A DNA stretch of 64,000 nucleotides from Giesbergeria anulus. GTDB taxonomy: Bacteria; Pseudomonadota; Gammaproteobacteria; Burkholderiales; Burkholderiaceae_C. Below are positions 42,386 to 56,054 of this stretch, piece after piece. Numbering within the stretch: the stretch's first letter is position 1; each line of letters starts with the position of its first letter. Location of the stretch: NCBI RefSeq assembly GCF_900111115.1, contig NZ_FOGD01000001.1:124001-188000 (forward strand), in the 5' to 3' direction. The position numbers and the translations under genes were made by a program. The notes under the pieces were generated by a model that had not been told where the DNA came from, made no database searches, and saw only the letters and a list, made by a program, of their open reading frames with translations.

Positions 42386-42838
42386 ATGCGAATCCTCCAC
42401 ACTATGCTCCGCGTTGGCAACCTCCAACGCTCGATTGATTTCTATACCCAAGTGCTGGGTATGCAGTTGCTGCGCACCTCTGAGAACCCGCAGTACCAGT
42501 ACTCGCTGGCTTTTTTGGGTTTCGCCGGCGGCAACCCGGCCCAAGCTGAGATTGAGTTGACCTACAACTGGGGTACCGAACAGTACGACCACGGCAATGC
42601 CTATGGGCACATTGCCATTGGCGTACCAGATGCCTATGCTGCCTGCGAAAAAATCAAGGCTGCCGGGGGCAACGTTACCCGCGAAGCTGGGCCAGTCAAA
42701 GGGGGAGCTACGGTGATTGCCTTTGTGACCGACCCTGATGGCTACAAAATCGAACTCATACAAGTAAAATCAATAACTTGCAACGACGACCGCCAGTCTG
42801 AAGACAAATCGGGATACGACCCACTGCGCGCTGCATAA
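42386..42838 (+). CDS. gloA: Lactoylglutathione lyase (glyoxalase I)
   Basis: 150 residues. The metal ligands of the GlxI fold are visible: His in [19 protein letters not shown], Glu in [10 protein letters not shown], His in [10 protein letters not shown] and Glu in GYKIELIQ. It turns the hemithioacetal of methylglyoxal and glutathione into lactoylglutathione. After IELIQ the protein goes on for about 23 polar residues ([19 protein letters not shown] and on), longer than the usual short tail. The phage genes begin right after this gene, so the end may have been altered by an insertion; this is only a possibility. Confidence 0.93.
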
Positions 42839-42895: not shown

Positions 42896-45800
42896 TTATT
42901 GCAGCTTCTTGCTCAACTTTTGCATCACATCGCGCTTCTTCTCTGCTTCCTGCTGCACCTGCGCCTGGTACTCATCGCGGCTAATCCGCTGGGTCTGGTA
43001 CTGACGCCGCAGCTGGGAGATATTCAGGTCAATCTCGCGCGCCTTGGCCTCAGCCTCCTTGATAAGATTGCGCCGCAGCACATCAGCCGGATAGCTCCCC
43101 AACTTCACCCCAGCCGATGAAGCAATGGCCTGCGCTACCGACTGCTCACGACTAAAGCCATCAGTGCGGCCATGCTTAGCATCGATGACCGAAGACCATG
43201 CGTATGTCTGTCCAGCATTCTTGACCCCCGACGCCTCCTCTAGTGCCCAGCCAACCGGATTGGGTAAGAGCAAATTGGGTGCAAACGCCTTATAAAAGTA
43301 GTCTGCCAACTTAGCGGTCTTCTGGGCAACACTATCCGTCTCCTGTGTGATTGGCTTGCCGGTGAAGCTCGTCTTGTTCAACACCACTTCAAACAACATG
43401 GCCAATGGCCCCGTAGGCATCAACCCCGGCAACATCGGAATGGCTGAATGCCCTTGGCCGACATCAAACACATCACCCACCGGTATCCAGCGCCGAATGT
43501 CCAAATAAACGGGCGAGTCGTGGGCGTCATTCCACGGCATACGAATCAGCTTGGGCACCATGCCCCAAATAGCACCCGCCTTCTCTTCTGGTAGCAGCTT
43601 GCGCTCCTTGTCATCATCGCCACCAGCCAGCATGTTCCCTAGCGCGTTCAGCCCACCGGCCAGCGCCATGAGCTTGAGCAGCTTGTGCGGCTTTTTGGCG
43701 GCAATCTCTGCCAGCATCGGCACTGCCCGATAAGTGAACGCCAAAAATGGCCACCCCGACTGGCGCATGGCACTGATCCATGGCGCATTGATGCTGTAAT
43801 CCAAAAACGATTTGCGCGCTACCTTGCCAGCGGCCATGTCATCTAAGCCATCCTCCTTGGCCTTGAGCCATGCTGCCAGCCGAAACACATCATCCTCAGC
43901 TTGGTAGATGTCAATCATCGCCTTAGCCGCTTTACCCATCCCCTTGCCCGGTTTGCTGGCCACAGCAGCAGCCCAGCTATCGGAAAATCTGCCATGACTA
44001 GCGTGTTGTAGCGCTGCCATCACGCCTATTTGCGCCTGCATACCGCCGCCATCGTCTTGCCCAAGCTCCTTCTCCAGCGCCGCCAGCAGCGGCTCCAACT
44101 GCTCGTTGGCAATCTCTTGGGTGGCCCACGATCCGGTATCACCACCACTGTCCTGATACCGATTCAGCACCTCCTGTGCCGCCTCACGGTCAGTAATGCC
44201 GCCTGTTTTTTGGCTAGTAGAAAGCAAAATGCGCAAGGCTTTGGTCACATGGCCGGCCCCCACATCATGCCAATCAGCCATCACAAAGTTAGACATGACA
44301 TTGTTCATGTGCACGCTGGGCGACAGTGCCGTCTTGCTGGTTTTCCACAGCGACAACACTTTGGCATAAGTCTCACCAAACGGCTTGAAGCGCCCACCAG
44401 CAACCACTTGACGGACATCATTCCAAATCGGGCCAGGAAGATAATGGTTGGCCAACTTGCCATACTTGAGCACCTCTGTGCCGGGTATCTTCACATCTGG
44501 AACCCTCACCCATTCATTGGTGGCAAAAGTGTCACGCATCCGCTCAGAGGCATCCACTACAGTGCCATCTACCTGATCACCGTCTTTCTTGCCATAGTTT
44601 TGGGCCATCCACTCCAAATAGCGTCCCACCTCCACATCGTGGATCATCATCTGGAGCGTCTTGGCAATGGCAAACCGGGCCTCGTCAATTTCCCCCATCT
44701 GGGTGCGCTCATTCTTGGTAAAGTCGCGCCACAGCACCACCTTCCCTGCTTGGGTGTCGCGCACTTCCCATGTTCCTGCCTGCGACCAGTCACTAAGCTT
44801 GTCGCTGTACTTGCTGGGGACAGGTTCGCCAGCAGGCCAGTACACCACCTCCTGTAACTTGCCCGGTTGCTTACTCTCCATGCCCGGCAAAGGCTCTATC
44901 CCTTCACCTGACGGCGCGCGCCGCTCTAGGCGGATGAACTTCTGCCCCTTCAGAGATGTATCGACTTTGTAGGGCACCACCTTGCGCCCCCACCATTCAG
45001 GAGCGACATTGCGTATCTCAGCCATAGAGGCAAATTCGCTCAGGCCCCGGCCTTGATATTGCTCCCCTAAAACCGCAATAGCCCGTGAGCGCACGGCTTT
45101 CTCCTCGGCGCTCAGGCCCAAGGTGTACTTTTCATAGGATCGATGCAGGTAGGCGAACTTATGCCGCTCGTACGCCTCTGGGGACAACTGCCCAAGGCGC
45201 ACCGCCTCACGGCTTAGCTTGTCGATCATTTGCTGCACTTCTTTGAGCACCTTGACCGACTCTTGGGGCAGCCCCTGCATCACGGAGTCATAAGCGGCCG
45301 CGTCAGCCCCCTCCTTCATATTCATCCACTCATAGGCCACCCGGCTCTCAGCCCGCGTCAAGGTGGCCAGCTTTTCGACGAGGGCACCTGTCTTACGCAG
45401 CTGCACCCGCTGGCGGCCTTGGAGTAAAGCGCGCTGGTCAATCACCGCTTCAGGTACCCCGTAATCTGAAACGACACCCGCCTTAACCCGCTCAGGAATC
45501 AGGCGCTCCAGCAGGACAGCCGCCTTGTCGTAAACATTGCGAGTCACCCGCTCAACACCGGTGGTGCGGGTAATGGCATGGGCTACCCTATCTAAGGGCG
45601 CGGCGCGGCCCACAGGCTTGCCAATCAGTTTATCGGCACGCTCAGCAGCTGTTGTGGGTGCGGGGGCCTCGGGGGAACTGCGACTTAGGCGGGAACCGGA
45701 GCTTGGTGAATCCGCGCGTTGGGGAATATTTTTTGAAGCGAGGCGATCGATTCGCGCTTGTTTTGCTGTAACGACTCGAGTTCGGAGCTCGTCAGCCGAT

Positions 45801-48800
45801 CGGAAGCCAATGAGGTACTGGGCTTCTGCGGCGGTAAGCTGCTGGGGGCCAAAGCCGAAGAGTTCGCGGATGACTTCTCCATGACGGGCCTCCAGTTGGT
45901 TGACGGTTTTGCGATCAGCTTGAATTTTACCCCCACGCATGGCATTGACCAACACCACGGAGCCAGCCACATCACCACCACTGCTTTGAATATAGGCTGC
46001 CAAATCGGCCAAAGTGCTACCCATGGTGGTGACGTCATCCACCAGCACATAGCGTCGGCCAGGCTCAACATAACCTGAAAACTCAGCACGGGCCAGCAAG
46101 CGCTCCATCGCGCCTGCCCCAGTGTGAAATGCACGGTTGGCCTGTGTAAGGCTGGTATCCACTTGTGCCCCCAAATGGTCGGCATACATCATGGCCAAGG
46201 CATTAGGGATTTGGTTGCGCCCTGTGGCCTCTTCGGCATGAACAGGAACAAACACCACATCCGATCCAAACTTTTCATGGGCCGATTGCAAATCTTCTGG
46301 CTTCACAAGATCCTGCACCAGCGCGGCGGCAGCCATGAGGTCACCTCCCTTGGCTGCCTTGTAATCTGGGTGCGCCTTCATAGGAATATCATTTTTGAAG
46401 GTGCCAATCACCGTGGCACTGCCTTCATTAAATGCTTTGCCCCCATGCGCCCGAGAGAGTGCAATGGGTGCAGACGTGCTCGCAGCAGACTCTTTCAGCC
46501 GAGACAAGCGCGTGGCCCCCACATACCCTGATGGCTGCCCGTCGCGCTGGCCCGCCACATAATCGCGTGCAGCGCGCACCAGATCGGCTACAAACCAGTC
46601 AGCCTGTTGCTGCTCATCCAAAGAGCCATTCAGCCAAGTAGTGAGGCGGTCGGCCAGCTTCTCATAGCCACGGCGATCAAGAAAATCCCGCACCTTTAGC
46701 ACTACCTTGCGCCAGCCCTTGAGCTGGGCCAGTTCCTTGGTCGGAATGTCAACAATCACCTCTTCCGTGGCTTCAGCATCTGAAAGACGGCCCCGCTCTT
46801 GCAGTTTGGAGGCCTGTTTTCGTACACTGGCGTTGTGGACCCAGACCATTTGCATGGCGGACTTCAAGCCATCCGCACCCAGTACGGCCCGTAACCCAAA
46901 GTGGGCCGCTTCATGCTCTGCCAGCACATGCTCAGCCTGCTCAAGACTTTGCAGGCCAGACCCGAACAGGTAGAACTCACCTTCGTGCATCGCCCCCTGA
47001 ACGTCATACCAGGCATCTTGCCGGTTGATGTATTCCATCAGGCTGTAAGGTGCGCTGGATGGGTCAGCCAACACATTCACCTTGGGCATATTCGGCATCT
47101 TGGCCTTCAGCCGATCAGCCAAGGCTTGCAGATCCTGCAATGGGACGCCAGACACACCATCGACAGAACCGGCGACGCCTATAGCCAACCGTGTGTCAGA
47201 TCCTAGGGGCGCTTCTACTGATTCTCTGTTGCCATCGACTGTGGTTTGGCCTTCTGCTGCTCCCGGCTGTCCTGCTGTGGCATCGGGTCTGGTAGCTGCA
47301 TCGCCTTCAGGGCTGCCATCAAAGCCCTGCGTATCCGTGGATTGCTGTCCACCTTGTCCATCAGAGAACGAACTTTCTCTATCGACTCTCCGCTGGGGGT
47401 CTTGGTTAGGGTTGTCATTTGGCGCTACCTCTCTGGCTTGTGTCAGTAAATCGGATCGTGATGGTGCAGGCCCCGCATCGCCAAGGATTGACGATTGCCG
47501 TGGGTCTCCAACCTGCTCCAGCGCCTCGTAATAGCGCTGGAAAAACTCTGCAATGCGGCGTGGGCTGCGCGTGTTATCTGCCAAAAACTGCATGAGTTCT
47601 GCTGTCTCTGGCGAGTACTTCTGCCCCGTCAAATCGGTCTGCGCCAACTCCTGCGCCACCGTCCAACCCTTATCGCGCAAGGCAGATAAGCCCTCCACCG
47701 CCTGCACCAAGTCGGGTGCAATGTCCCCCTGATGCAAGGCCCCTGCCTCCATACGCTCACGCGCAGATGCAATGGTCGGTGCTACTCGCAGCAGAGCCTT
47801 GCTGATATTGAGCAAGTTGTTGTCCATGCTCTCGGTCATCCGGCGCAAGGTGGGCGAATCCCCATACGCCTTGGCCAGCACTGCATTCTGAATGCGCCGG
47901 TACCCAGCAGCGGACAAACGCCCATCGGCCTCCATCATCTCGCTTTGTTCCGTGATGGGTAACGTGCTCCTGAACTGGCGAATGAAGTCACGGCTGTTAG
48001 AAAAATCGCCATCCTCCGTGGGGTTGAGACCCTCTAGGCTATTGAGCCGGGCAGCATCCGCTTTGGCCTGCTCGCTGGGGCTCATGCGCTGCACCGTGCT
48101 GGCATTGGCTTGGCGTGCAAACTCAGCCCGGTTGACGGGCGTGGAGCGCACCCGCACCAATACCGGCTTGGGCGTCACATCCACTGTGGCCGGATCAATA
48201 CCAAACTGGGCAGCCTTGTCTCGCAGAAATGCTTTGTAGTTCTCGGCCTTCTGGCCGTTAGCTTGGTGGTATACGCGCTTCAGGGCAATCATTCGGGCAT
48301 TGCCAGACTCCACCAATCCATCTGCCCCCACAATCGGCGCACCCGTGGCAGCGTCCGCAGATGCCCCCAGCCGTGCTGGGTCTAACTTTTGCACAATGCC
48401 CGACACCTGTAATTCACTGGCACGTCGGCTGCGGTCGCGTGGCTGTAACTCTTGTGGGTACAGCGGATTGGGCCACGAGCCCTCAATATGGGATGTGATC
48501 AGATCGTCTGCACTCATCAGCGCATAGACACCATCGAGCTTCACACCCGATTCGGTACTAAAAGAGGTGGGTGCTCCCTTGGCCGCTTGTGGCCATGTCG
48601 CTGCAATTTGGTTACGTTCTTGCTCCAGCATAGCCGCCTTGGCTGCCAACTCTTGGCGTGACTGGTCAAAAGCGGGGCCATAGCCGTTTTCTGGAGTCTC
48701 ATCCTGCAACCGCTCCCGAACACTCATCAACTCGGCATCCAATTCCACCGCCCGATCCAATGCGGTCAAAGCCACAGGCTGCTTGAGGGCCTTTTCTGCA

Positions 48801-51082
48801 GCTTCCGCAGAGGCCTGCGCTTGCGCCTCAGGATTCTGTGCAGGCGGCTCAGAATTTGGCCCAAGGGTTCCAGAATCCTGCGCTTGCGTTTCAGGCGCAG
48901 CCTCTGGTGCGGGTGCGATCTGCGCTTCAATAGCCTGCATGGCCTGTTCCCGCACTTTAGGCGGTTGCTGTGGGTTTTTGGCAGTGTTCAGCAGCGTAAT
49001 CAGTTCCTGCACTGCCTGAGGGCCACCATCTACCTGACGCAGCGTATCCAGCAACCCACCGCCATCCTTGCCACCACGAACCAGATTCTCTGCTTCTGCA
49101 ATGCGCTGGGCTAATGTCTTCGGTGCGATGGTGGCAGGTGCAGTATCGGGGGCTAGCGTGGCATCCGGCGCTGATGTCCGAGCATCTGAACTTGGGGCGC
49201 GCCCATCACCCAGCACCTGCTTGCCATAAGCAAAGCCGTGCATCCCCCCGCCCATTGCCAAACCAGCCGCAGCATTTTGGGCAATAGCACCCCCCACATC
49301 CAGCTTGGCAGAGGGATCTGCCTGCACCACGGCACCATGCTGCACCGTATCCTCCGGTACGCCTTGGATCACCTCCTCCACCGTGTCTTGGCCAGCCCGC
49401 TTAGCCAGCTCCTTGCCGGTCAAGCGCTCGACACCGGCCACCGTTTTAGCCGTGGCATCGCCACCGAATATCTTGTTCGTGATGCCTGTCCCTAGGCCTG
49501 TGACCACCACCGAGGGCAGTGCTGCCTGGTCGGCCAACTCATTGGCCAGCCGTTCACGGGCCTTATACGGATTCTTGACCTCCGCCATCAGCTCTTTGTA
49601 CCGATCTGAGGATGCGGCGAGCTTATCCAGCGGCATCCCCATCACCTGCTGATAAATCCCCTCCGAGGCATTCATGCCCGATGAGGCTGCCTCTGACAAA
49701 AGGCCAGCGCTAGAAGCCCTAGCCACGGCCTGCTGTTGCAGCGGTGCCATTGCTGCGGCGGCCGCTTCGGCCTGTGCTGCTGCCGTTCCACCCGCTTTGG
49801 CTATGCCCGCTGCAGCCGCATCACCAGCATTGGTCGCTGCCGCCAGTTTGCCACCGGCGGCCAAACGCGCCATACCCACGCCCATCAGCATATCGGGCAC
49901 CGAGCGGGCCATCGTGTGGGTGAAGGCCATCGGGTTGTCTGCAATGGCTTTCAGGTTGCCCACAAACCCCTCGGCTTGTGCCGTCGCCTGCTGTTGTCGC
50001 AACAGTTCAGGGTTTGTGGCCGCATCCGCTGCCATGATGGCTTGGGTGCGACTGCGGGCATCCTCTTGCAGGCCTAAGCCCATCCGGGCCATCATGGTCA
50101 TGGGGTTGGCCCAGCCCCCATCTTCGCCCACCTTGGCGTTTTCTAGGCGTTGTTCAGCGGCAAACTGCGATGCCATCTGTGCAGTCTGCTGGATATCTGG
50201 GTTCGCCTTGGCATCCATGCCTTCCAGCTTATTGGCCAGCCATGTCATGCCCTGGTCGGCCAGTGCAGCAGCCCCCGTCACACCCGCCAAAGCGTTAGCC
50301 GCCGGTGCCTGCAAGAACTTGCCAATGCCGCCTTGGATGCCCAAAACGCCGGTACCAATGCCACTCGACACTGCACCGGCATAGTCCCCAGCCTTCTGTA
50401 GCGCAGTCCCTGGCATGGGTGCCTTCGGGTCAATGCCGGCCTCCGCAAACAGGTCTCGCCCACCACCATCCCACGGCGCTTTGGGATCAATACCCGCCTC
50501 AGCAAACAGATCGCGCCCACCAGCCGGGCGGTTGCGATCAATCCCCAACTGGGCAAACACGTCGCGCCCCGCAGTGCCCGGTGCTTGCTGCGAGGAACCA
50601 CCCGACAAATCAGAACCACCCTGCGCCGTGCCAATCGTGCGTGTCAACTTGTTCACGTAGGCGGGGTCAGTGGCATAGCCCCCAGCTTTTAAGGCCTGTG
50701 CAAACTCTTGCGGCGTTTCAGCTACCCGCGCATCGGGGTATTTGCGATCCAGCAGCCGCACCAGATCCCGAGTCGACTCCTCATAGTCAGTGTATTGGCG
50801 GTAACGATGATTCGATCCCTCCGCCTTGTCAGTGGCCCGGATGCCTGTTCCATCCTTGGAAAAATCCTTGATGTTGAACAGATTGTGGGTGTCCACCCCA
50901 TCACCTTTGATCGTTGCAGCCCCGCCACGGGTTTCCAGCTTGGCCAGCCCCAGCAAAAAATCAGAGCTGTAGCCCGTCTCCTGCGCCACCTTCTTGATGG
51001 CATCTTCCGGGGAGAGCTTGGTATCACCCCCATCAGACCCCCTGACCTCAATCCCCAACTCAGCAAACAAGTCCCGTGCCAT
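42896..51082 (-). CDS. Giant multidomain phage virion (polyvalent-type) protein
   Basis: 2728 residues from ATG 51080-51082 with AAAGG upstream. In order: GH73-like peptidoglycan hydrolase at about 15-150 (LLGLAKLETRGG, THNLFNIKDFS, YATDPAYVNKLTRTIG); short RDLFAEAGID repeats at 172-222; an Ala/Gln-rich middle; a ddrB-type ParB-like domain near 860-1000 (GLVESGNARMIALKRVYHQ); a zincin-like HEAAH near 1390 (LAEHEAAHFGLRAV); a phosphoribosyltransferase-like domain at about 1560-1750 (RYVLVDDVTTMGSTLADLA); then a long C-terminal region with WPFLAFTYRAVPMLAEIAA and a Lys-rich coiled-coil end. Known families with such mixes are the polyvalent proteins of phages and conjugative elements, injected with the DNA and thought to protect it or act on the host. 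A role in cell-wall passage at ejection follows from the GH73 part. It is one intact frame of 8.2 kb. Confidence 0.88.
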   Translation of the reverse strand: MARDLFAELGIEVRGSDGGDTKLSPEDAIKKVAQETGYSSDFLLGLAKLETRGGAATIKGDGVDTHNLFNIKDFSKDGTGIRATDKAEGSNHRYRQYTDYEESTRDLVRLLDRKYPDARVAETPQEFAQALKAGGYATDPAYVNKLTRTIGTAQGGSDLSGGSSQQAPGTAGRDVFAQLGIDRNRPAGGRDLFAEAGIDPKAPWDGGGRDLFAEAGIDPKAPMPGTALQKAGDYAGAVSSGIGTGVLGIQGGIGKFLQAPAANALAGVTGAAALADQGMTWLANKLEGMDAKANPDIQQTAQMASQFAAEQRLENAKVGEDGGWANPMTMMARMGLGLQEDARSRTQAIMAADAATNPELLRQQQATAQAEGFVGNLKAIADNPMAFTHTMARSVPDMLMGVGMARLAAGGKLAAATNAGDAAAAGIAKAGGTAAAQAEAAAAAMAPLQQQAVARASSAGLLSEAASSGMNASEGIYQQVMGMPLDKLAASSDRYKELMAEVKNPYKARERLANELADQAALPSVVVTGLGTGITNKIFGGDATAKTVAGVERLTGKELAKRAGQDTVEEVIQGVPEDTVQHGAVVQADPSAKLDVGGAIAQNAAAGLAMGGGMHGFAYGKQVLGDGRAPSSDARTSAPDATLAPDTAPATIAPKTLAQRIAEAENLVRGGKDGGGLLDTLRQVDGGPQAVQELITLLNTAKNPQQPPKVREQAMQAIEAQIAPAPEAAPETQAQDSGTLGPNSEPPAQNPEAQAQASAEAAEKALKQPVALTALDRAVELDAELMSVRERLQDETPENGYGPAFDQSRQELAAKAAMLEQERNQIAATWPQAAKGAPTSFSTESGVKLDGVYALMSADDLITSHIEGSWPNPLYPQELQPRDRSRRASELQVSGIVQKLDPARLGASADAATGAPIVGADGLVESGNARMIALKRVYHQANGQKAENYKAFLRDKAAQFGIDPATVDVTPKPVLVRVRSTPVNRAEFARQANASTVQRMSPSEQAKADAARLNSLEGLNPTEDGDFSNSRDFIRQFRSTLPITEQSEMMEADGRLSAAGYRRIQNAVLAKAYGDSPTLRRMTESMDNNLLNISKALLRVAPTIASARERMEAGALHQGDIAPDLVQAVEGLSALRDKGWTVAQELAQTDLTGQKYSPETAELMQFLADNTRSPRRIAEFFQRYYEALEQVGDPRQSSILGDAGPAPSRSDLLTQAREVAPNDNPNQDPQRRVDRESSFSDGQGGQQSTDTQGFDGSPEGDAATRPDATAGQPGAAEGQTTVDGNRESVEAPLGSDTRLAIGVAGSVDGVSGVPLQDLQALADRLKAKMPNMPKVNVLADPSSAPYSLMEYINRQDAWYDVQGAMHEGEFYLFGSGLQSLEQAEHVLAEHEAAHFGLRAVLGADGLKSAMQMVWVHNASVRKQASKLQERGRLSDAEATEEVIVDIPTKELAQLKGWRKVVLKVRDFLDRRGYEKLADRLTTWLNGSLDEQQQADWFVADLVRAARDYVAGQRDGQPSGYVGATRLSRLKESAASTSAPIALSRAHGGKAFNEGSATVIGTFKNDIPMKAHPDYKAAKGGDLMAAAALVQDLVKPEDLQSAHEKFGSDVVFVPVHAEEATGRNQIPNALAMMYADHLGAQVDTSLTQANRAFHTGAGAMERLLARAEFSGYVEPGRRYVLVDDVTTMGSTLADLAAYIQSSGGDVAGSVVLVNAMRGGKIQADRKTVNQLEARHGEVIRELFGFGPQQLTAAEAQYLIGFRSADELRTRVVTAKQARIDRLASKNIPQRADSPSSGSRLSRSSPEAPAPTTAAERADKLIGKPVGRAAPLDRVAHAITRTTGVERVTRNVYDKAAVLLERLIPERVKAGVVSDYGVPEAVIDQRALLQGRQRVQLRKTGALVEKLATLTRAESRVAYEWMNMKEGADAAAYDSVMQGLPQESVKVLKEVQQMIDKLSREAVRLGQLSPEAYERHKFAYLHRSYEKYTLGLSAEEKAVRSRAIAVLGEQYQGRGLSEFASMAEIRNVAPEWWGRKVVPYKVDTSLKGQKFIRLERRAPSGEGIEPLPGMESKQPGKLQEVVYWPAGEPVPSKYSDKLSDWSQAGTWEVRDTQAGKVVLWRDFTKNERTQMGEIDEARFAIAKTLQMMIHDVEVGRYLEWMAQNYGKKDGDQVDGTVVDASERMRDTFATNEWVRVPDVKIPGTEVLKYGKLANHYLPGPIWNDVRQVVAGGRFKPFGETYAKVLSLWKTSKTALSPSVHMNNVMSNFVMADWHDVGAGHVTKALRILLSTSQKTGGITDREAAQEVLNRYQDSGGDTGSWATQEIANEQLEPLLAALEKELGQDDGGGMQAQIGVMAALQHASHGRFSDSWAAAVASKPGKGMGKAAKAMIDIYQAEDDVFRLAAWLKAKEDGLDDMAAGKVARKSFLDYSINAPWISAMRQSGWPFLAFTYRAVPMLAEIAAKKPHKLLKLMALAGGLNALGNMLAGGDDDKERKLLPEEKAGAIWGMVPKLIRMPWNDAHDSPVYLDIRRWIPVGDVFDVGQGHSAIPMLPGLMPTGPLAMLFEVVLNKTSFTGKPITQETDSVAQKTAKLADYFYKAFAPNLLLPNPVGWALEEASGVKNAGQTYAWSSVIDAKHGRTDGFSREQSVAQAIASSAGVKLGSYPADVLRRNLIKEAEAKAREIDLNISQLRRQYQTQRISRDEYQAQVQQEAEKKRDVMQKLSKKLQ
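50417..50569 (-). repeat. Internal repeats encoding RDLFAEAGID motifs
   Basis: Three tandem 15-20-residue units in the giant protein read GRDVFAQLGIDRNRPAG, GRDLFAEAGIDPKAPWDG and GRDLFAEAGIDPKAPMPG. A fourth copy, ARDLFAELGIEV, is the very N-terminus of the same protein. The conserved core is RDxFAxxGI followed by Asp or Glu. Confidence 0.88.
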
Positions 51083-51151
51083 AACAAACCTTTGGTTGAA
51101 CCTTCAAAGGCTGCCATGCTTGGTGGCTGTCCTTGCGCCTCGTTGAACAAG

Positions 51152-51173
51152 AAAAAGCCCGCACGGGGCGGGC
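51152..51173 (-). terminator. Rho-independent terminator after the AntA antirepressor gene
   Basis: On the minus strand, GCCCGC and GCGGGC (51157-51162 with 51168-51173) form a stem with a 5-base loop, followed by five T (51152-51156). It separates the AntA transcript from the giant virion gene, which then needs its own promoter in the next 70 bases or read-through. Confidence 0.85.
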
Positions 51174-51193
51174 CGGGGGGTTAAACGGGGCGC

Positions 51194-51943
51194 TTAGTGG
51201 GCTAGGCCCAATTGCTGGTCGATGCCACCGAGGGCTTGATGCGCTTTGGTTTGGATGTAGCGCAGCATGTCCCGCACAGCCCCTAGTTCTTGGTGGTAGT
51301 GGTGCGCCAAGCAATTGCCTAGCGCGGCTTTACCCAATACGCCTTTGATGACTTCGTTATCCGGGTCATTCAAGTGGGCGGCATTGGTGTTCCAAGCCAC
51401 CCGGCGCTCTAAGTGGGCGCGAATCAGTGGATAAGCTTCGCCCACCAAGCGCCCGGCGGTTTGGTCAATCAGTGTGTGCTGGGCAGCCGTCAGGGGCTTG
51501 GGGTCACATTGGCCGGACAGCAGTAGGGCGGCTACGTTGATGCTGTCGCCGTGAGGTTGGTAGGTAGCAGTTGCCTTTAGCGCCTGACGTTCGCAAGCAA
51601 TGAAGTAGCGCCGGGCTTCGCGGCCCTTGGCGTTGTTCTCCACCATACTCAACTCTTTGGCCATGTCGAGGGTCAGGTGGTAGTCGGTCAGTTTTTGCGC
51701 CCGTGCTTTTGAGCTCACCAAATCGGGGGAGCTCAAATTCTCTACCGTGATGAAGTCCTCGTTTACAACAAAGCCGAACTTGGCGATGCGGCCCTTGATC
51801 CAAGTCGTGAAATCCCGCTTCACGCTCATGAAGCTATGCAGAGCGCGAGCGCAGCAAAGCTGAATCACTTCACCGCCGATGGTGTCGTTAAAAACTGGGA
51901 TGAGTGCAGCGTTGCTGCCGGTAGTTTGGATAGAATGGCTCAT
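51194..51943 (-). CDS. AntA/AntB-family phage antirepressor
   Basis: 249 residues. The AntA/AntB domain is at the N-terminus: ARALHSFMSVKRDFTTWIK, KFGFVVNEDFITVENLSS, YHLTLDMAKELSMVENNAKGREARRYFIACER. The last segment is a very typical end of this domain family. The C-terminal half (about 130-249) has no recognised domain and a His-rich stretch (NCLAHHYHQELG). Antirepressors of this type bind the main phage repressor and inactivate it, so lytic genes switch on. It follows the ORF6N gene and an 85-base gap, and is closed by a terminator. Confidence 0.9.
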   Translation of the reverse strand: MSHSIQTTGSNAALIPVFNDTIGGEVIQLCCARALHSFMSVKRDFTTWIKGRIAKFGFVVNEDFITVENLSSPDLVSSKARAQKLTDYHLTLDMAKELSMVENNAKGREARRYFIACERQALKATATYQPHGDSINVAALLLSGQCDPKPLTAAQHTLIDQTAGRLVGEAYPLIRAHLERRVAWNTNAAHLNDPDNEVIKGVLGKAALGNCLAHHYHQELGAVRDMLRYIQTKAHQALGGIDQQLGLAH

Positions 51944-51976
51944 GTTGATACCTTTTTGTTTCGGTTGTTGACAATC

Positions 51977-52015
51977 AAAGCCTCAGCGGGTCTAAGCGCT
52001 GGGGCTTTTTTCTTT
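51977..52015 (+). terminator. Strong plus-strand terminator in the AntA/ORF6N gap
   Basis: AAAGCCTCAGCG (51977-51988) pairs with CGCTGGGGCTTT (51997-52008) over 12 base pairs with one G-T pair and an 8-base loop, followed by TTTTTTCTTT. The T run is on the plus strand only, while both neighbouring genes are on the minus strand. No plus-strand gene ends here. Confidence 0.8.
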
Positions 52016-52028
52016 GCGCTGTTGCGGC

Positions 52029-52706
52029 TCATGAGAACAACAGCTTTTCCACCATGTCAAGTTGCGGCGGCGTGCCGTGCAGTTTTGCTTGGTTGCTGGT
52101 GATGCGCTGCCAGTCGTTGCGCGTGTCCTGACCAAGGGCGAAGCGGTCGCAGAAGTCAGCCACTTCAGCGGTTTGCTCCTTGGACATATCTTTGAAACAG
52201 TACGACCCCGCGAACAGGTTTAGCAGCGTATAGACCTTGTTGAACATCAAGTGGTGCTTAACCACGGTGTCGATGGCAAAGTGGTACAGCGGCAGGCGGT
52301 CGTGCTTAGTGCTGCGCTCGTGGCCATCGACCACTGGGGCGCGGGTCAGCATCTGGGCAAAGTAGCTATCCTCCATCTGCTCGAACACATCCCAAGCCTG
52401 ATCCGTTTCCAACATCTTGGCGTGACGGGCAGCGCCGCGTTCTGTCCAAAGGATGAGGTGTGCTGCTCGTTTGGCAACCAACCCAACAATATTGGGTTGG
52501 TTCTTGAACTCCTTCAAGTCATCGTTTTGCAGCTTGATGAAGTGCTTCCCTTCCTCAAACCGGTTGCGGTTGTTTTCAAAGTTGACACTCAGATTTTTCT
52601 CTGTGCATCCGTAAAGTTCAGCGAGTTGTTGCGTAGTGCAAACGCGCTGCCCCTTGTAGCCGATAACGGGCGTGGCGATGGTGCCAATGGTGATGGTGTG
52701 GGTCAT
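52029..52706 (-). CDS. ORF6N-domain phage antirepressor
   Basis: 225 residues from ATG 52704-52706; a longer reading to 52784 overlaps the Arc-like gene and is rejected. The ORF6N domain (about 10-100) shows GYKGQRVCTTQQLAELYGCT, NLSVNFENNRNRFEEGKHFIKL and LILWTERGAARHAKMLETDQ. The C-terminal part resembles antirepressor effector halves and is helical (DTVVKHHLMFNKVYTLLN). ORF6N occurs in phage proteins that take part in repressor inactivation. It lies 28 bases after the Arc-like gene, in the place that Ant has in P22 after Arc. Confidence 0.9.
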   Translation of the reverse strand: MTHTITIGTIATPVIGYKGQRVCTTQQLAELYGCTEKNLSVNFENNRNRFEEGKHFIKLQNDDLKEFKNQPNIVGLVAKRAAHLILWTERGAARHAKMLETDQAWDVFEQMEDSYFAQMLTRAPVVDGHERSTKHDRLPLYHFAIDTVVKHHLMFNKVYTLLNLFAGSYCFKDMSKEQTAEVADFCDRFALGQDTRNDWQRITSNQAKLHGTPPQLDMVEKLLFS

Positions 52707-52734
52707 GTTTTGTGGTGTATTTGTGGTTTTTTTC

Positions 52735-52902
52735 TTAGGCTTGCTTTGCACCACAAACCTCCTGCTTTTCCTTGACCTGCCCAATCAGCTTGTTCACAAT
52801 CCATGTAACGGAGCGTTCTTGCTGCTGCGCGGCCTTCTTGAGCCATGCGTGGACTTCCTTATCAATGCGAATCTTCATTTGCACATCAGTAGAGTGGTTC
52901 AT
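52735..52902 (-). CDS. Arc-like ribbon-helix-helix repressor
   Basis: 55 residues from ATG 52900-52902 with GAGG 9 to 6 bases upstream, close to the 53 residues of P22 Arc. The ribbon strand VQMKIRIDKEVHAWLKK is followed by helix A (VHAWLKKAAQQQERS) and helix B (VTWIVNKLIGQVKEK), the MetJ/Arc fold. The strand QMKIRI would contact DNA. It is the first gene of the antirepressor transcript and is divergent from an Mnt-like gene across a palindrome. In P22, Arc turns down its own transcript; the same role is proposed here. Confidence 0.88.
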   Translation of the reverse strand: MNHSTDVQMKIRIDKEVHAWLKKAAQQQERSVTWIVNKLIGQVKEKQEVCGAKQA

Positions 52903-52917
52903 TTGATACCTCAAAAA

Positions 52918-52938
52918 AATAGACCACCGTGGTCTATT
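52918..52938. promoter_or_regulatory. Mnt-type operator palindrome in the divergent immI-like promoter
   Basis: Ten-base arms AATAGACCAC (52918-52927) and GTGGTCTATT (52929-52938) around one central C are a perfect inverted repeat. A minus-strand -10-like CATAAT at 52945-52950, preceded by TG, would place the antirepressor transcript start on the palindrome. The core CCACCGTGG differs in one base from the CCACGGTGG core of the P22 Mnt operator as I remember it. A weaker related sequence with GTGG lies near 52979-52999, next to the Mnt-like start. Confidence 0.85.
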
Positions 52939-53008
52939 GGTTTGATTATGCACCACTTAGGTTTATCTCTAAAAGACCCCATGATCTACTGTGGCTTATC
53001 ATTCGTAC

Positions 53009-53506
53009 ATGAGCCGTGAAGACCCACAAATGAAGATTCGGCTGCCTGCCGAACTAAAAGACCACATCGAAGCCTCTGCCAAGCAGCTTGGCCGCAGCAT
53101 GAACTCTGAAATTGTTGCTCGCCTGAAGGCAACGATTCTTGGCTACATTGATGTGGATGGATCCAAAGACCTCGGTGCCAAGGAGATTGAGCGCCTGACA
53201 AAGGAGTTGAGCGATCTTCGTGGTGCCTCTACTGAATCGCTTGGAAAGCTATCGTCAAGCATCCAGTTTCTTGTAGGCGAGGTTGCTGAGAACAAAAAAA
53301 TTAGCTTTGAAGATGCTCTTTTGCTGTGCGTTGCACGGGGGTCAGCTATGACTACGGGGGTACCGGCTGTTGTGTTTCAATTTCAGCAAGGAACTACCAT
53401 TTCCGAAATGCAGGCCACCCTTAGGGAGGCAAGCGAACTATTGCCAGCCGATTGCCTGTTAGGCGTTGAGCAGGTACCGGAAGTCATAACCAGAGCATTA
53501 AAGTAG
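53009..53506 (+). CDS. Mnt-like ribbon-helix-helix repressor with a long C-terminal domain
   Basis: 165 residues from ATG 53009; a GTG at 52991 is the other option. The first 50 residues are strikingly close to P22 Mnt: MSREDPQMKIRLPAELKDH and LGRSMNSEIVARLK, with the RxDP, MKIRLP and GRSMNSE parts in common as I remember Mnt. After the RHH domain comes a helical, charged segment (KEIERLTKELSDLRGASTES) and then a distinct C-terminal part (SFEDALLLCVARGSAMTTG, FQFQQGTTISEMQATL). P22 Mnt has only 82 residues, so this tail is new and may add oligomerisation or a sensor function. The gene is divergent from the Arc-like gene and leads into the HicB/HicA-like pair. Confidence 0.9.
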   Translation: MSREDPQMKIRLPAELKDHIEASAKQLGRSMNSEIVARLKATILGYIDVDGSKDLGAKEIERLTKELSDLRGASTESLGKLSSSIQFLVGEVAENKKISFEDALLLCVARGSAMTTGVPAVVFQFQQGTTISEMQATLREASELLPADCLLGVEQVPEVITRALK

Positions 53507-53632
53507 CCCCCCAGTAGGTTTTGCATTCCCATCCGGCCAGCGTGACGGGCTGCACTGCGTTTTGTTCAGGTAGTAGCAGTGGCTGACCGAGCTGGGTTAG
53601 CACAGTCTTTCGGGGGGTGTGATAATGGCCCG

Positions 53633-54283
53633 ATGAGCTTTTTTGTTGCCAGTTTTGGTGAGTTGCCTGTGCGCTTTGTGCTGCGCAGTGGTGATTTGTT
53701 TGTCTCCAAAGATGACCTGTTCGCAGCCATCACTTCTTGCTTTACGCCGCGCATTCAGGCGCTGGGGGTGCAGTTCATTGAGCACGGGCTTTCCTTGTTA
53801 AGTGACAGCCACGACAAGCGCGCCGCAGTGATGGGCGACAGTGAGATTGGCCCGGCGGTTCATTTCCATGCAGCGGGCAGTCTGCTGCACTCTCTGAGCG
53901 ACTTGACGGACGTGGACAGCGATGATTTGCGCGAATCCAGCTTTCGCGTAAGCACTTTGCTGCGCTGGTATTCCGCTGCCACAGCCCGTGCCGATGAACA
54001 CTTTGGAAGAACCGTGGTCGATCTGTTGGGCTCTGTAAAAAAACGCCTTGATCGACTGAACCCTCCGCTTACGGTAGAGGTCACTTTCAGCGATGGGTAC
54101 TACACGGCAGAATGCGACGCGCTGAACCTGGTCACGGAGGCCAAGACGCTAGACGAGTTGACGGAACGCACTTGGCTGTTGGTGCCTGACTTGATCGAGT
54201 TGAACGATCTGCCGATGGATGCCGATTCTGTCCGGCTTCGGTTTGACTTGGTGCAATCCGCCCAGCAGCGCGTTGCACTCTGA
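53633..54283 (+). CDS. HicB/DUF1902-like antitoxin with an antirepressor-like N-terminal domain
   Basis: 216 residues from ATG 53633 (no strong ribosome site; a GTG at 53579 gives 18 more residues). The C-terminal part (about 140-190) reads LTVEVTFSDGYYTAECDALNLVTEAKTLDE and LVPDLIELNDLP, the partial RNase H-like HicB/DUF1902 fold that binds HicA toxins. The N-terminal 60 residues (LPVRFVLRSGDLFVSKDDLFAAITS) recall the BRO/antirepressor start in which a strand pair precedes FVAKDV. A middle part has no recognised domain. It is followed 3 bases later by the HicA-like gene. Fusion of an antirepressor-like part to an antitoxin is unusual; the N-terminal assignment is tentative. Confidence 0.75.
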   Translation: MSFFVASFGELPVRFVLRSGDLFVSKDDLFAAITSCFTPRIQALGVQFIEHGLSLLSDSHDKRAAVMGDSEIGPAVHFHAAGSLLHSLSDLTDVDSDDLRESSFRVSTLLRWYSAATARADEHFGRTVVDLLGSVKKRLDRLNPPLTVEVTFSDGYYTAECDALNLVTEAKTLDELTERTWLLVPDLIELNDLPMDADSVRLRFDLVQSAQQRVAL

Positions 54284-54286
54284 GCG

Positions 54287-54484
54287 ATGGGTTCCGGCTT
54301 TTACCCGCAACTGCGGGCGCTGCTATTGCAACATGGCTGCGTGATGATCCGACAGGGCAAGGGTAGCCATGAATTTTGGGAAAGCCCCATTAACGGCGCA
54401 CGCTTTCCTGTAGCAGTGACGGTAAACACCCGCAACACAGCCAATGCCATTTTGAAGCAAGCAGGCATCAAGGCAAAGCTCTGA
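54287..54484 (+). CDS. hicA: HicA-like mRNA interferase toxin
   Basis: 65 residues, from ATG 54287, 3 bases after the antitoxin stop. The dsRBD-like HicA fold is clear: YPQLRALLLQHGCVMIRQGKGSHEFWESP, with the catalytic His in GKGSHEFW, then FPVAVTVNTRNTANAILKQAGI. HicA cuts mRNA and blocks translation. In the usual hicAB order the toxin comes first; here the antitoxin gene is first. It ends 10 bases before the stop of the convergent structural gene. Confidence 0.88.
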   Translation: MGSGFYPQLRALLLQHGCVMIRQGKGSHEFWESPINGARFPVAVTVNTRNTANAILKQAGIKAKL

Positions 54485-54494
54485 TAGTGCAGGC

Positions 54495-56054
54495 TCACAT
54501 CCCCAATCTCCGCTTAACTTCGTCCTCAGACACGCCCCACAGCCTAGCGGTATTTGCAATAGCTTGCGGTGTTACATCTTTGAGCGGTTGACCAATGGTG
54601 TTGGAGATCGGTTTGCCGGTGCTTGGCTTGCCCCCACTGGCAGGAGCAGGCGCAGCCCCCGGTGCTGATGCTGCACCACCCCTGACCTGCTTCATCCAGC
54701 CATCGCCATAAACATTCAGCATGATCTTGTCCACCTCCTCAGGGGTTCGGCCCAAACCGCCTTCACCCTTGGAGATCAGTAGGTCGGTGTAGAAATCCCG
54801 GGCTGACTTCGATTTTCTCGTCAGCGCCATTTCATACCCAGACTTCAGATCAGGCACCACGCCCAAACGTACCAACTCCTGTGCGTGCTTCAGTTCGGGT
54901 GATGAGTTTTTCGCATCTCTCAGGGCATTCTGCTGAGTTTGGAGCGCCTTGTACTCTGGGCTGTCTGGGTCATGCTTGGCCTTCTCGATACTGATACTGG
55001 CATCCAGCGCCGCGACATCATAGACTGGCTTCTTGGCATCAAATTCCCGCTGCTCCAAGTTCTGTTTGGCAGCAGATATACCATCCGCAGCACGGGTATG
55101 CCGGATAGCTTCGTTTTTAGCCGCCGCATCGTTATTGTTGACCACCACGCTCTTTTGCAGCTCATTGCCCCGTTGGATACGTTCGGCAACCTCTTTGTCG
55201 ATTAAGGTCAGGTTCTTATAGCCCCGTTCATAGTTGCCATTCTCCATGTCTTGCAAAGCGGCCACCATCACCCCCAACTGGTGCGGGGCCAAGCGCACCT
55301 CCCGCCCTGTGTCCTTGATCTTCAAGGTGGTTACGCCGTATTTTTGGTCAAAGTCTGCCGCCAATTCTCCATAGTTATTGTTCTCGGTCAGTCGCTTGGC
55401 CAAGTCCGTGCCAAACTGCGGATTGTTTTTTATCGTGTGCATGGTGACGCCCACCATCTTGGCGTAGGAAAAATCTGAATTCAGCGCCTCCATTTTCGCG
55501 CCTAATCCATCCATAGCCACGACATCGCGCTTCGCCGCAGCAGCCTCTGCCAGGATCTGTAAACGGGCGCGTTCACGTTCATACCGCTTCTGAATCGGGC
55601 CAATCGCCGGATGCTGCTTAGGGGCTTCAGGGGCTTCAATGACACCAGCAGCCCCCTGCTGCGGCTCCGAGGGAGGGGTCAGGATGTTGTTCGTTGCTGG
55701 ATTGGACTGCGCATCTTCCACCGGATTGGCTTGTACTGGAGATTGCGCTGGCGCACTGCCACCACCTTGCCCATCGGCAGGGGCAGGCTTGTTCTGCGCG
55801 CTAAAACCAATCCCATTGGGGGTGTTGAACTGCTGCAAAAAAGAAACCTCTTTGCCGTCGTCTGCCTCCAGTGGGCCGCCATACAGTTTCGATGCCTTCT
55901 GCATGGCACCGTCCAGCGCCCGATTGCGCATCTGCTCATCTTCAAATCTGATGCGCTCCCGTTTGTCGATCTCCTCCTGACGGTTACTGGAGATTGCGTG
56001 CTCGTACATGGTGGTGCCGCGATTGATGGCAGCAGGGTCTAAATAAAAGGCCAT
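54495..56054 (-). CDS. Phage structural (putative internal/ejection) protein
   Basis: 519 residues, starting MAFYLDPAAINRGTTMYEHA. The protein is highly charged with long helices and a Pro/Gln/Ala-rich linker (about 88-150, for example GGGSAPAQSPVQANPVEDA). A coiled-coil-like section holds RYERERARLQILAEAAAAK and ERGYKNLTLIDKEVAERIQ. The end is Pro/Ala-rich. No known domain was recognised. Its position among tail and internal virion genes and its composition suggest a protein packaged in the virion and ejected with DNA, as for T7 and P22 internal proteins. It is the gene to the right of the immI-like locus, as P22 gene 16 is. Confidence 0.65.
   Translation of the reverse strand: MAFYLDPAAINRGTTMYEHAISSNRQEEIDKRERIRFEDEQMRNRALDGAMQKASKLYGGPLEADDGKEVSFLQQFNTPNGIGFSAQNKPAPADGQGGGSAPAQSPVQANPVEDAQSNPATNNILTPPSEPQQGAAGVIEAPEAPKQHPAIGPIQKRYERERARLQILAEAAAAKRDVVAMDGLGAKMEALNSDFSYAKMVGVTMHTIKNNPQFGTDLAKRLTENNNYGELAADFDQKYGVTTLKIKDTGREVRLAPHQLGVMVAALQDMENGNYERGYKNLTLIDKEVAERIQRGNELQKSVVVNNNDAAAKNEAIRHTRAADGISAAKQNLEQREFDAKKPVYDVAALDASISIEKAKHDPDSPEYKALQTQQNALRDAKNSSPELKHAQELVRLGVVPDLKSGYEMALTRKSKSARDFYTDLLISKGEGGLGRTPEEVDKIMLNVYGDGWMKQVRGGAASAPGAAPAPASGGKPSTGKPISNTIGQPLKDVTPQAIANTARLWGVSEDEVKRRLGM

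Follow-up and report, generated by a model that had tools for sequence, protein, structure and literature searches.

A P22 immI-type antirepressor cassette with a predicted sar-like RNA in a podoviral prophage of Giesbergeria anulus

The immI region of phage P22 is a textbook gene-control system. A locus of this type (cassette 1) lies at positions 51194-54484 of the window analysed here, a stretch of 64,000 nucleotides (C14:124001-188000) of the Giesbergeria anulus genome (3.42 Mb, 33 contigs); C14 denotes the contig that holds the window, and L005, L011 and similar labels denote the loci compared. Taken as a whole, cassette 1 is very probably a P22 immI-type 'ant moron' within the late operon of a Bcep22/DC1-like prophage, working in the manner proposed below. 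The likeness to P22 immI had been put forward in the original prediction, and it stands: an operator at the position of the P22 Mnt operator and a predicted sar-like RNA over the antA start both agree with it.

Repressor genes, operator and antirepressors of cassette 1

The features assigned to cassette 1 are as follows (window positions).

51194-51943, minus strand: antA, AntA-domain antirepressor of 249 residues, second of the operon (PF08346, 80.6 bits, E 1.3e-22, cut-off 27)
51931-51936, plus strand: TAGAAT, candidate -10 box for a sar-like promoter, within the first antA codons; -35 poor
51944-52010, plus strand: sar1, predicted antisense RNA of ~67 nt covering the antA ribosome binding site (model R2)
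51977-52008, plus strand: sar1 terminator hairpin, 12-bp stem with T-rich tail (terminator scan, fold, covariation)
52029-52706, minus strand: ORF6N-domain antirepressor, first of the operon (PF10543, 79.4 bits, cut-off 27.8)
52735-52902, minus strand: arc, Arc-size ribbon-helix-helix (RHH) protein of 55 residues (PHROG 3180 'Arc-like repressor', 3e-9; predicted RHH fold)
52918-52938, no strand: operator, 21-bp perfect odd palindrome AATAGACCACCGTGGTCTATT with 10-bp arms, in the mnt-arc intergenic region
52945-52973, minus strand: candidate P_ant promoter, TTTAGA - 17 - CATAAT, 9/12 (promoter scan and position relative to the operator)
53009-53506, plus strand: mnt, Mnt-like RHH repressor of 165 residues, divergent from arc (PF03869 Arc, 44.9 bits, cut-off 20.4)
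53633-54283, plus strand: HicB-like gene with C-terminal DUF1902 (PF08972, 29.3 bits, cut-off 22)
54287-54484, plus strand: HicA-like toxin gene of 65 residues, G-S-H motif in the translation (PF07927 HicA_toxin, 35.1 bits, cut-off 27)

All genes named in the original prediction were found in place and on the expected strands; the operator palindrome, the sar-like RNA and a second cassette had gone unmentioned in it. As in P22 immI (NC_002371, X01916), a divergent pair of RHH repressor genes is present, with mnt on one side and arc and the antirepressor genes on the other, and with a profile for Mnt and Arc proteins, made from 13 sequences (P22, the two cassettes of this prophage and four relatives), such divergent pairs were found in many relatives. 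The Mnt-like protein matched PDB 1mnt at 22.6 bits (E 8e-4) and is 32.9% identical to P22 Mnt over 70 residues, so that the earlier description of its first 50 residues as very close to P22 Mnt was overstated. By tblastn it matched 45 of 50,697 phage records, including 29 from Salmonella phages; among the 20 of these 45 matches listed, most were to P22-group phages and several were labelled Mnt, the best Mnt-labelled one being 41.7% identical over residues 5-76. For the Arc-size protein, the predicted structure (predicted local distance difference test score, pLDDT, 78.9; predicted template modelling score, pTM, 0.51) has an RHH fold. The top Foldseek matches of this model were RHH proteins, the antitoxin CopASO first and then P22 Arc structures, with none of 116 matches reaching E 0.001. 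A HicB-like PHROG was also among its PHROG matches, and against Pfam the 73-residue frame gave nothing above cut-off, the best being HicB at 15.8 bits (cut-off 21).

The operator palindrome shares its core, CAC-S-GTG, with the annotated P22 Mnt operator. With the two mnt-arc intergenic regions left out, none of 5000 random windows of 116 nt from the prophage had arms of this length. The centre of the palindrome lies 17 nt past the -10 box, compared with 15 nt in P22, placing a putative Mnt-type operator just downstream of the predicted P_ant -10, as in P22 immI. Of the 17 mnt-arc intergenic regions compared, 9 have CACNGTG (P22, both cassettes of this prophage, L011, L012, L015, L112, L120 and L121) and 8 lack it, some of the latter containing other palindromes. 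The operator-promoter spacing was judged in 8 of the 9 regions (L121 left out), and in 8 of 8 the operator centre stood 14-19 nt past a -10 end, with the caveats that the L011 promoter is poor (5/12), that cassette 2 has two tied candidates of which one fits, and that the promoter used for L112 ranks second among its candidates. Cassette 2, L011, L015, L112 and L120 also have a second site, at -10 to -12, which is the place of the P22 Arc operator.

The operator flank appears to follow the Mnt beta-strand as a tendency. Proteins with the strand REDPQ-x-K-x-R (the Mnt of cassette 1, hereafter Mnt1, L120, L011 and L012) pair with CCAC-N-GTGG sites, and Mnt2 of cassette 2 and the L112 protein, which share the strand GRESDKFMLRF, pair with GTCAC-N-GTGAC sites; the exceptions are L012, which has GATCAC-N-GTGATC as its start-proximal site, and L014, which has a similar strand (TDPQYKLR) and no CACNGTG. 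Such Mnt-operator pairs would form a natural series on how an RHH strand reads DNA. The exact motif TTGACAATCAANGCCYC occurred in 42 IMG/VR stretches, two of them the cassettes described here; the other 40 were judged by eye, with no family search, to be chance occurrences. The shorter motif TTGACAATCAA was no more frequent than by chance in the window or in L005, and a stricter motif pattern returned, from 399 genomes of the order, the two sites of this prophage only.

Directly behind arc lie the ORF6N gene and then antA, antirepressor genes in the place of ant in P22 immI. The antA product matched PHROG 5817 (anti-repressor Ant) at 4.2e-47. The ORF6N gene starts with ATG at 52706, a GTG at 52754 that overlaps arc being possible, and its product is 63%, 66% and 75% identical to those of ORF6N genes beside mnt-arc pairs in L116, L115 and L122, respectively. 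An Ant of the P22_AR_N type is lacking in cassette 1 and present in cassette 2 (142.7 bits); cassette 1 is therefore filed as immI-type and not as a strict P22 immI member.

In the HicB/HicA-like pair noted earlier, HicA_toxin and DUF1902 both scored above their Pfam cut-offs; DUF1902, in the last third of the HicB-like protein, was the only domain matched there. The pair follows mnt on the same strand, in the position occupied by orf59a and sieA in P22. The HicB-like protein had five plasmid matches, confined to residues 145-216, and a match in 1 of 200 family genomes, that of G. anulus itself; for its N-terminal part no relatives were found in plasmids or in the 200 family genomes. A single-sequence model of it reached a pLDDT of 39.3 and was not used. 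By tblastn, neither the HicA-like nor the HicB-like protein had a match in loci other than those of this prophage (145 records including alignment rows, with flanks partly short).

A predicted sar-like RNA over the antA start

In the P22 record (NC_002371, X01916), the 70-nt sar immediately precedes the start of ant; its promoter lies within that gene and its terminator on the arc side. This layout is repeated on the plus strand of the antA leader, the antA start being at 51943. For comparison, 11 leaders were aligned in the antisense direction (the two of this prophage, P22, L012, L014, L103, L112, L113, L117, L119 and L121), chosen as lying before an antirepressor behind an RHH gene and having such a hairpin; those inspected and left out were L011, L015, L019, L020, L026, L120 and the ORF6N-first L115 and L116.

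Across the 11 leaders, 94.6% of the cells of the 12-bp stem were paired, and none of 500 shuffles was as good. Stem cells changed on both sides numbered 25, compared with 7.8 in shuffles (again 0/500 as good), and shifting the stem partner dropped the pairing to 36-61%. The antisense strand folded better than the sense strand in 11/11 leaders, with 18 G-U pair cells on the antisense strand and 1 on the sense strand; together, the G-U bias and the better fold point to the antisense RNA as a structured molecule. TAGAAT recurs at equal offset in 7 of the 11 leaders, which are not all independent as L117 and L119 are near relatives, and P22 has TATACT. All seven TAGAAT leaders use the Ser codon TCT at this place, which accounts for 12.9% of the Ser codons in the 12 genes examined.

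Model R2 was built from 8 leaders, with those of this prophage and of P22 left out. In 110,701 bases it recovered sar2, the leader of cassette 2, at 70.3 bits, sar1 at 51.2 bits (match spanning 51937-52019) and P22 sar at 38.4 bits (E 7e-6). Over the whole G. anulus genome the E-values were 4.9e-11 for cassette 2 and 4.7e-7 for cassette 1, the next independent match having 0.43. An antisense RNA over the antA start, as in P22 immI, is thus predicted by a model untrained on the leaders of this prophage. These two leaders are also alike in direct comparison (score 50 vs 16.3 ± 2.5 shuffled, 0/2000).

The predicted RNAs resemble the Rfam sar family (RF00262) in size, position, hairpin terminator and strand, and differ from it in score: the Rfam model gave 97.8 bits for P22, and for cassette 1 a full-length match of 15.9 bits, below the gathering threshold of 43. 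A scan of 51000-54700 with Rfam under an E-value threshold returned nothing at gathering level. The covariance model would thereby be a means to find sar-like RNAs below the Rfam threshold.

As a control on AntA genes, model R1 was run on 39 IMG/VR loci (L072-L110), where only L103, the sole one with a divergent RHH pair, exceeded 30 bits; L103 is itself a training member. Over 299 family genomes, R1 had matches in 16. The 17 matches were the two of this prophage, L132 (equal to the training locus L014) and 14 others, 6 of them full-length and 8 partial. Of the full-length matches, those in L133, L134 and L140 coincide with the start of an antirepressor gene next to an RHH pair, and those in L135 and L136 adjoin one RHH gene and a short or broken frame; L139 has neither feature. 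The 8 partial matches covered the terminator part only and were counted as chance.

Weaker sar-model matches were also observed behind an antirepressor, at L119:2824-2908 (34.1 bits), L117:2824-2863 (27.4 bits), L115:3192-3230 (19.1 bits) and L122:5835-5919 (27.2 bits). In L115 and L117 such a match is followed by a small gene (MNATAKPRARKA...), and sar leaders may attach to other genes too.

The second cassette, insertion sites and relatives

The features of the wider prophage that bear on cassette 1 are listed below.

C14:201164-202856 (= L005:14164-15856, outside the window, same prophage): cassette 2, with mnt2 (plus), arc2 (minus), the sar2 leader and the P22_AR_N ant
42740-42756 of the window and C14:224011-224027, no strand: candidate attachment-site (att) repeat, a 17-bp direct repeat (exact-match comparison of both prophage ends)
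42896-51082, minus strand: giant virion gene of 2728 residues with glucosaminidase and ddrB-ParB domains (PF01832, PF18763), on the downstream side of cassette 1
54495-56054, minus strand: late gene of 519 residues on the upstream side of cassette 1, its place corresponding to DC1 gp66 beside the giant gene

Cassette 2 has the P22-type portal gene on one side and, beyond two orphan genes, the scaffold-like gene on the other. Its intergenic region contains three GTCAC-N-GTGAC palindromes, and three CACNGTG in one window occurred in 0 of 5000 background windows. Mnt1 and Mnt2 are 43.9% identical over 41 residues, and Mnt2 and the L112 Mnt are 72% identical over 58; for this reason cassette 2 is not regarded as a recent copy of cassette 1. 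The operator flanks differ, being GACCAC in cassette 1 and AGTCAC in cassette 2, and two separate switches are accordingly predicted. The computed sar-leader pairing was -131 kcal/mol with the own target and -60 with the other in one case, and -146 and -52 kcal/mol in the other. As to the orphan genes, the one at L005:12849-13304 (plus) had no PHROG match, and the one at L005:13421-13972 (minus) no Pfam or PHROG match.

The locus continues into a prophage recorded in IMG/VR as a contig of 56,939 bases, which is also the length of C14:166896-223834, from the giant gene to an integrase-like gene. The prophage is classed as Bcep22/DC1-like podoviral. Its portal shares 42% identity with the counterpart in Burkholderia phage DC1 (Lessievirus), and the scaffold-like, internal virion, 314-residue and giant genes also match DC1 in corresponding order, the last two weakly (3e-6 and 6e-6, the giant gene resembling DC1 giant gp67 over 153 residues). 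The giant gene also showed a phosphoribosyltransferase match below cut-off. The 519-residue protein had no family above cut-off in Pfam or PHROG, and its relatives numbered 0 among 50,697 phage records and 1 among 399 genomes (G. anulus itself), with the IMG/VR matches being this prophage only; since this gene is without detectable relatives, DC1, POI1126 and PBC5 were used to judge empty sites.

DC1 differs from the present prophage in that both sites are empty: its portal is separated from gp44 by 7 bp, and gp66 from the giant gp67 by 81 bp. Downstream of the portal, the gap to the next gene is 49 bp in POI1126 and 18 bp in PBC5. Both cassettes therefore look like insertions. The original prediction had placed the locus between two virion genes; it does adjoin the 519-residue gene and the 2728-residue giant gene, but the former is without a family match, and a late (virion) operon around cassette 1 is suggested by synteny with DC1. 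L116 was considered as sharing the cassette 1 site and dropped, the giant, 519-residue and 314-residue proteins giving no match there.

Relatives carry the cassette with exchanged antirepressor domains. The sar-like leader precedes P22_AR_N in cassette 2, L014, L112, L117 and L133, AntA in cassette 1, L103 and L140, Bro-N in L012 and L134, and Rha in L121. Hybrids are also seen: in L117-L119 the N-terminal part is like the cassette 2 Ant (Ant2; 46-55%) and the C-terminal part 70-76% identical to the cassette 1 ORF6N protein, and in L140 the AntA part is 63% identical to the cassette 1 AntA and the C-terminal part 43% identical to Ant2. Where ORF6N directly follows arc (L115, L116, L122), it begins at the arc stop and leaves no room for sar; in cassette 1, sar accordingly sits before AntA. 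A Comamonas metagenome-assembled genome (L121:4270-5675) has a Rha-type and then an ORF6N antirepressor behind one mnt-arc pair, with a sar-like leader. Six of nine relative loci are in Comamonas, Acidovorax, Delftia and Burkholderiaceae contigs, and 3 of 9 in Clostridium or Selenomonas-type records; the former fit the betaproteobacterial label used in the original prediction. These results suggest that the immI-type switch moves as a cassette and occurs far outside the phages of Salmonella.

Proposed mechanism, competing explanations and known systems

From the genes and their order, the operators, the conserved RNA structure and the empty sites, we infer the following scheme of transcription, repression and antisense control. 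In the lysogen, Mnt bound to the operator at 52918-52938 would keep P_ant off. Upon infection or induction, P_ant would yield an arc-orf6N-antA message, and Arc would next turn P_ant down. The sar-like antisense RNA would pair with the antA start, limiting AntA translation. ORF6N and AntA would act as antirepressors against one or more phage repressors, the target probably including the S24-type repressor encoded in the prophage itself (C14:212081-212890) and/or repressors of competing phages. HicBA, judged by its position in the place of sieA, would presumably be a prophage-expressed accessory, and cassette 2 (mnt2-arc2-sar2-P22_AR_N ant) would have been acquired independently, between portal and scaffold. 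The statements on the P22 mechanism follow the parts consulted of PMC11016777 (a P22 immI deletion study) and PMC2629481, and the P22 record.

Several observations weigh against this account. In the RNA, the pairs with a double change numbered 6 against 4.5 in shuffles (81/500 as good) and are not clearly above them; the R2 test was not fully blind, as its training leaders were chosen with those of this prophage known and its stem came from the 11-leader fold; and the sar1 promoter has a poor -35. The Rfam sar threshold was missed by both leaders, cassette 2 giving no match, and three unrelated Rfam families outscored sar on the cassette 1 stretch by 0.3-3.2 bits. Pairwise similarity between the leaders of this prophage and P22 is weak (338/2000 and 49/2000 shuffles as good). 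The promoter and terminator counts of the region are close to those of shuffles, with 4 promoters found compared with 1.9 ± 1.4 and 7 terminators compared with a mean of 5.4. A clean operator occurs once in cassette 1, where the second-best site for ACCACNGTGGT matches at 8/10, in a prophage where 54 positions score at least 8. The match of its site to DC1 gp66-gp67 is positional, given a 519-residue gene without detectable relatives, the repressor targeted by the antirepressors is assigned by inference, and the account as a whole is drawn from sequence.

The hairpin could instead be a cis-acting structure of the ant mRNA (an attenuator or translation control) with no antisense RNA, and TAGAAT the reflection of a conserved N-terminal peptide. 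This would fit with the poor -35 of sar1, with stem covariation that suits either strand and with the conservation of a (D/N/H)S(T/I)-like peptide where ant begins, but is unlikely in view of the antisense fold, which is better in all 11 leaders mostly as sense C-A mismatches become antisense G-U pairs. On the antisense strand, most leaders also have T-rich stretches after the hairpin (weak in P22 and L121), TCT is used by 7/7 leaders compared with 12.9% of Ser codons, and the model ties the leaders to the known P22 sar. It appears equally improbable that a recent duplication has given rise to one redundant switch, with the same regulatory specificity in both cassettes. The two leaders are clearly related, as scored above, yet Mnt1 and Mnt2 are alike over 41 residues only while Mnt2 is far closer to the L112 Mnt, the operator flanks differ, and each sar is computed to pair with its own target more than twice as strongly as with the other.

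That the RHH pair and HicB/HicA make up a toxin-antitoxin or addiction module, with the antirepressors as passengers, is highly unlikely. RHH folds are common in antitoxins, and HicA and DUF1902 above cut-off, CopASO as the best Foldseek match of Arc and its HicB-like PHROG match all point that way; divergent RHH pairs nevertheless accompany antirepressors in relatives such as L012, L014, L103, L112, L113, L115-L122, L133, L134 and L140, and in those tblastn searches of the non-own loci (145 records, flanks partly short) the HicA- and HicB-like proteins had no match. A decayed moron whose genes are functionless remnants seems a very slim prospect: degraded ant morons are in print (PMC2629481, in the sections consulted), and two relatives have short or broken ant frames (L135, L136), but in cassette 1 the six genes are open and the operator palindrome is perfect, and both cassettes have kept the RNA stem intact.

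Beyond the P22 immI-type assignment, we tentatively entertain, at somewhat under an even chance, a wider reading: that the prophage holds two independently acquired and insulated immI switches with three antirepressors of three domain types, each switch with its own operator code and sar RNA, and that the sar leader with the first ant codons is an ancient socket for P22_AR_N, AntA, Bro-N and Rha domains, swapped by recombination. If so, phages could switch antirepressor targets while keeping the control intact.

Compared with P22 immI, cassette 1 shares the predicted antisense RNA that covers the start of the antirepressor gene and has its promoter within that gene, the place in the late operon and accessory genes behind mnt. 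It differs in having two antirepressors (ORF6N and AntA) in place of one P22_AR_N Ant, a sar-like RNA between the two, a HicBA-like pair where P22 has sieA, and a further cassette at another place in the prophage. New here are the double antirepressor operon, HicBA for sieA and the second cassette, with two immI cassettes and three antirepressors in one prophage. The ant morons of P22-like phages are similar in being a variable late-gene insert with interchangeable members; according to the sections consulted of PMC2629481, those of 16 such phages lie, where present, only between genes 16 and 9, whereas two other sites are occupied here in a different podovirus type. The same source (2008) raised the questions of why the ant moron is at one place only and of whether it was inserted once. 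Two different cassettes at two other late-gene sites, both empty in a related phage, indicate that repeated insertion elsewhere is possible.

In the literature found, as far as the portions consulted go, P22 immI is discussed mainly in P22-like enterobacterial phages; a Gifsy antirepressor paper (PMC3121763) and a Wolbachia paper (PMC12558409) were also found there. A Sar RNA homolog of Mycobacterium mucogenicum (PMC6582537, in the excerpt consulted) lies in a phage region, has low homology to other sar, is reported as expressed and is given an unknown function, so that finding a sar-like RNA outside P22-like phages is in itself no novelty; it stands between two genes of unknown function, unlike the present leaders before antirepressors. 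The portions consulted of the open-licence literature, with most subscription papers outside it, contained no account of two immI cassettes in one prophage and no description of sar-like leaders before other antirepressor types. The original prediction knew of no described betaproteobacterial prophage with this combination, which within the search holds for the exact gene set; a similar gene order occurs in phi437 of Paraburkholderia terrae BS437, where a table in PMC5567305 lists Arc (-), Arc (+), antirepressor (+) and Roi (+) in a row, and mnt-arc-antirepressor cassettes occur in the Comamonas metagenome-assembled genome and an Acidovorax contig. The passages seen of PMC5567305 give no immI interpretation, and phi437 differs in having no ORF6N-AntA-HicBA set there.

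Near the mnt-arc cassettes of two relatives, a family of small secreted-looking proteins (ADYATCLLDK...) was observed at L116:327-677 and L117:3289-3981, for which an exclusion function may be guessed.

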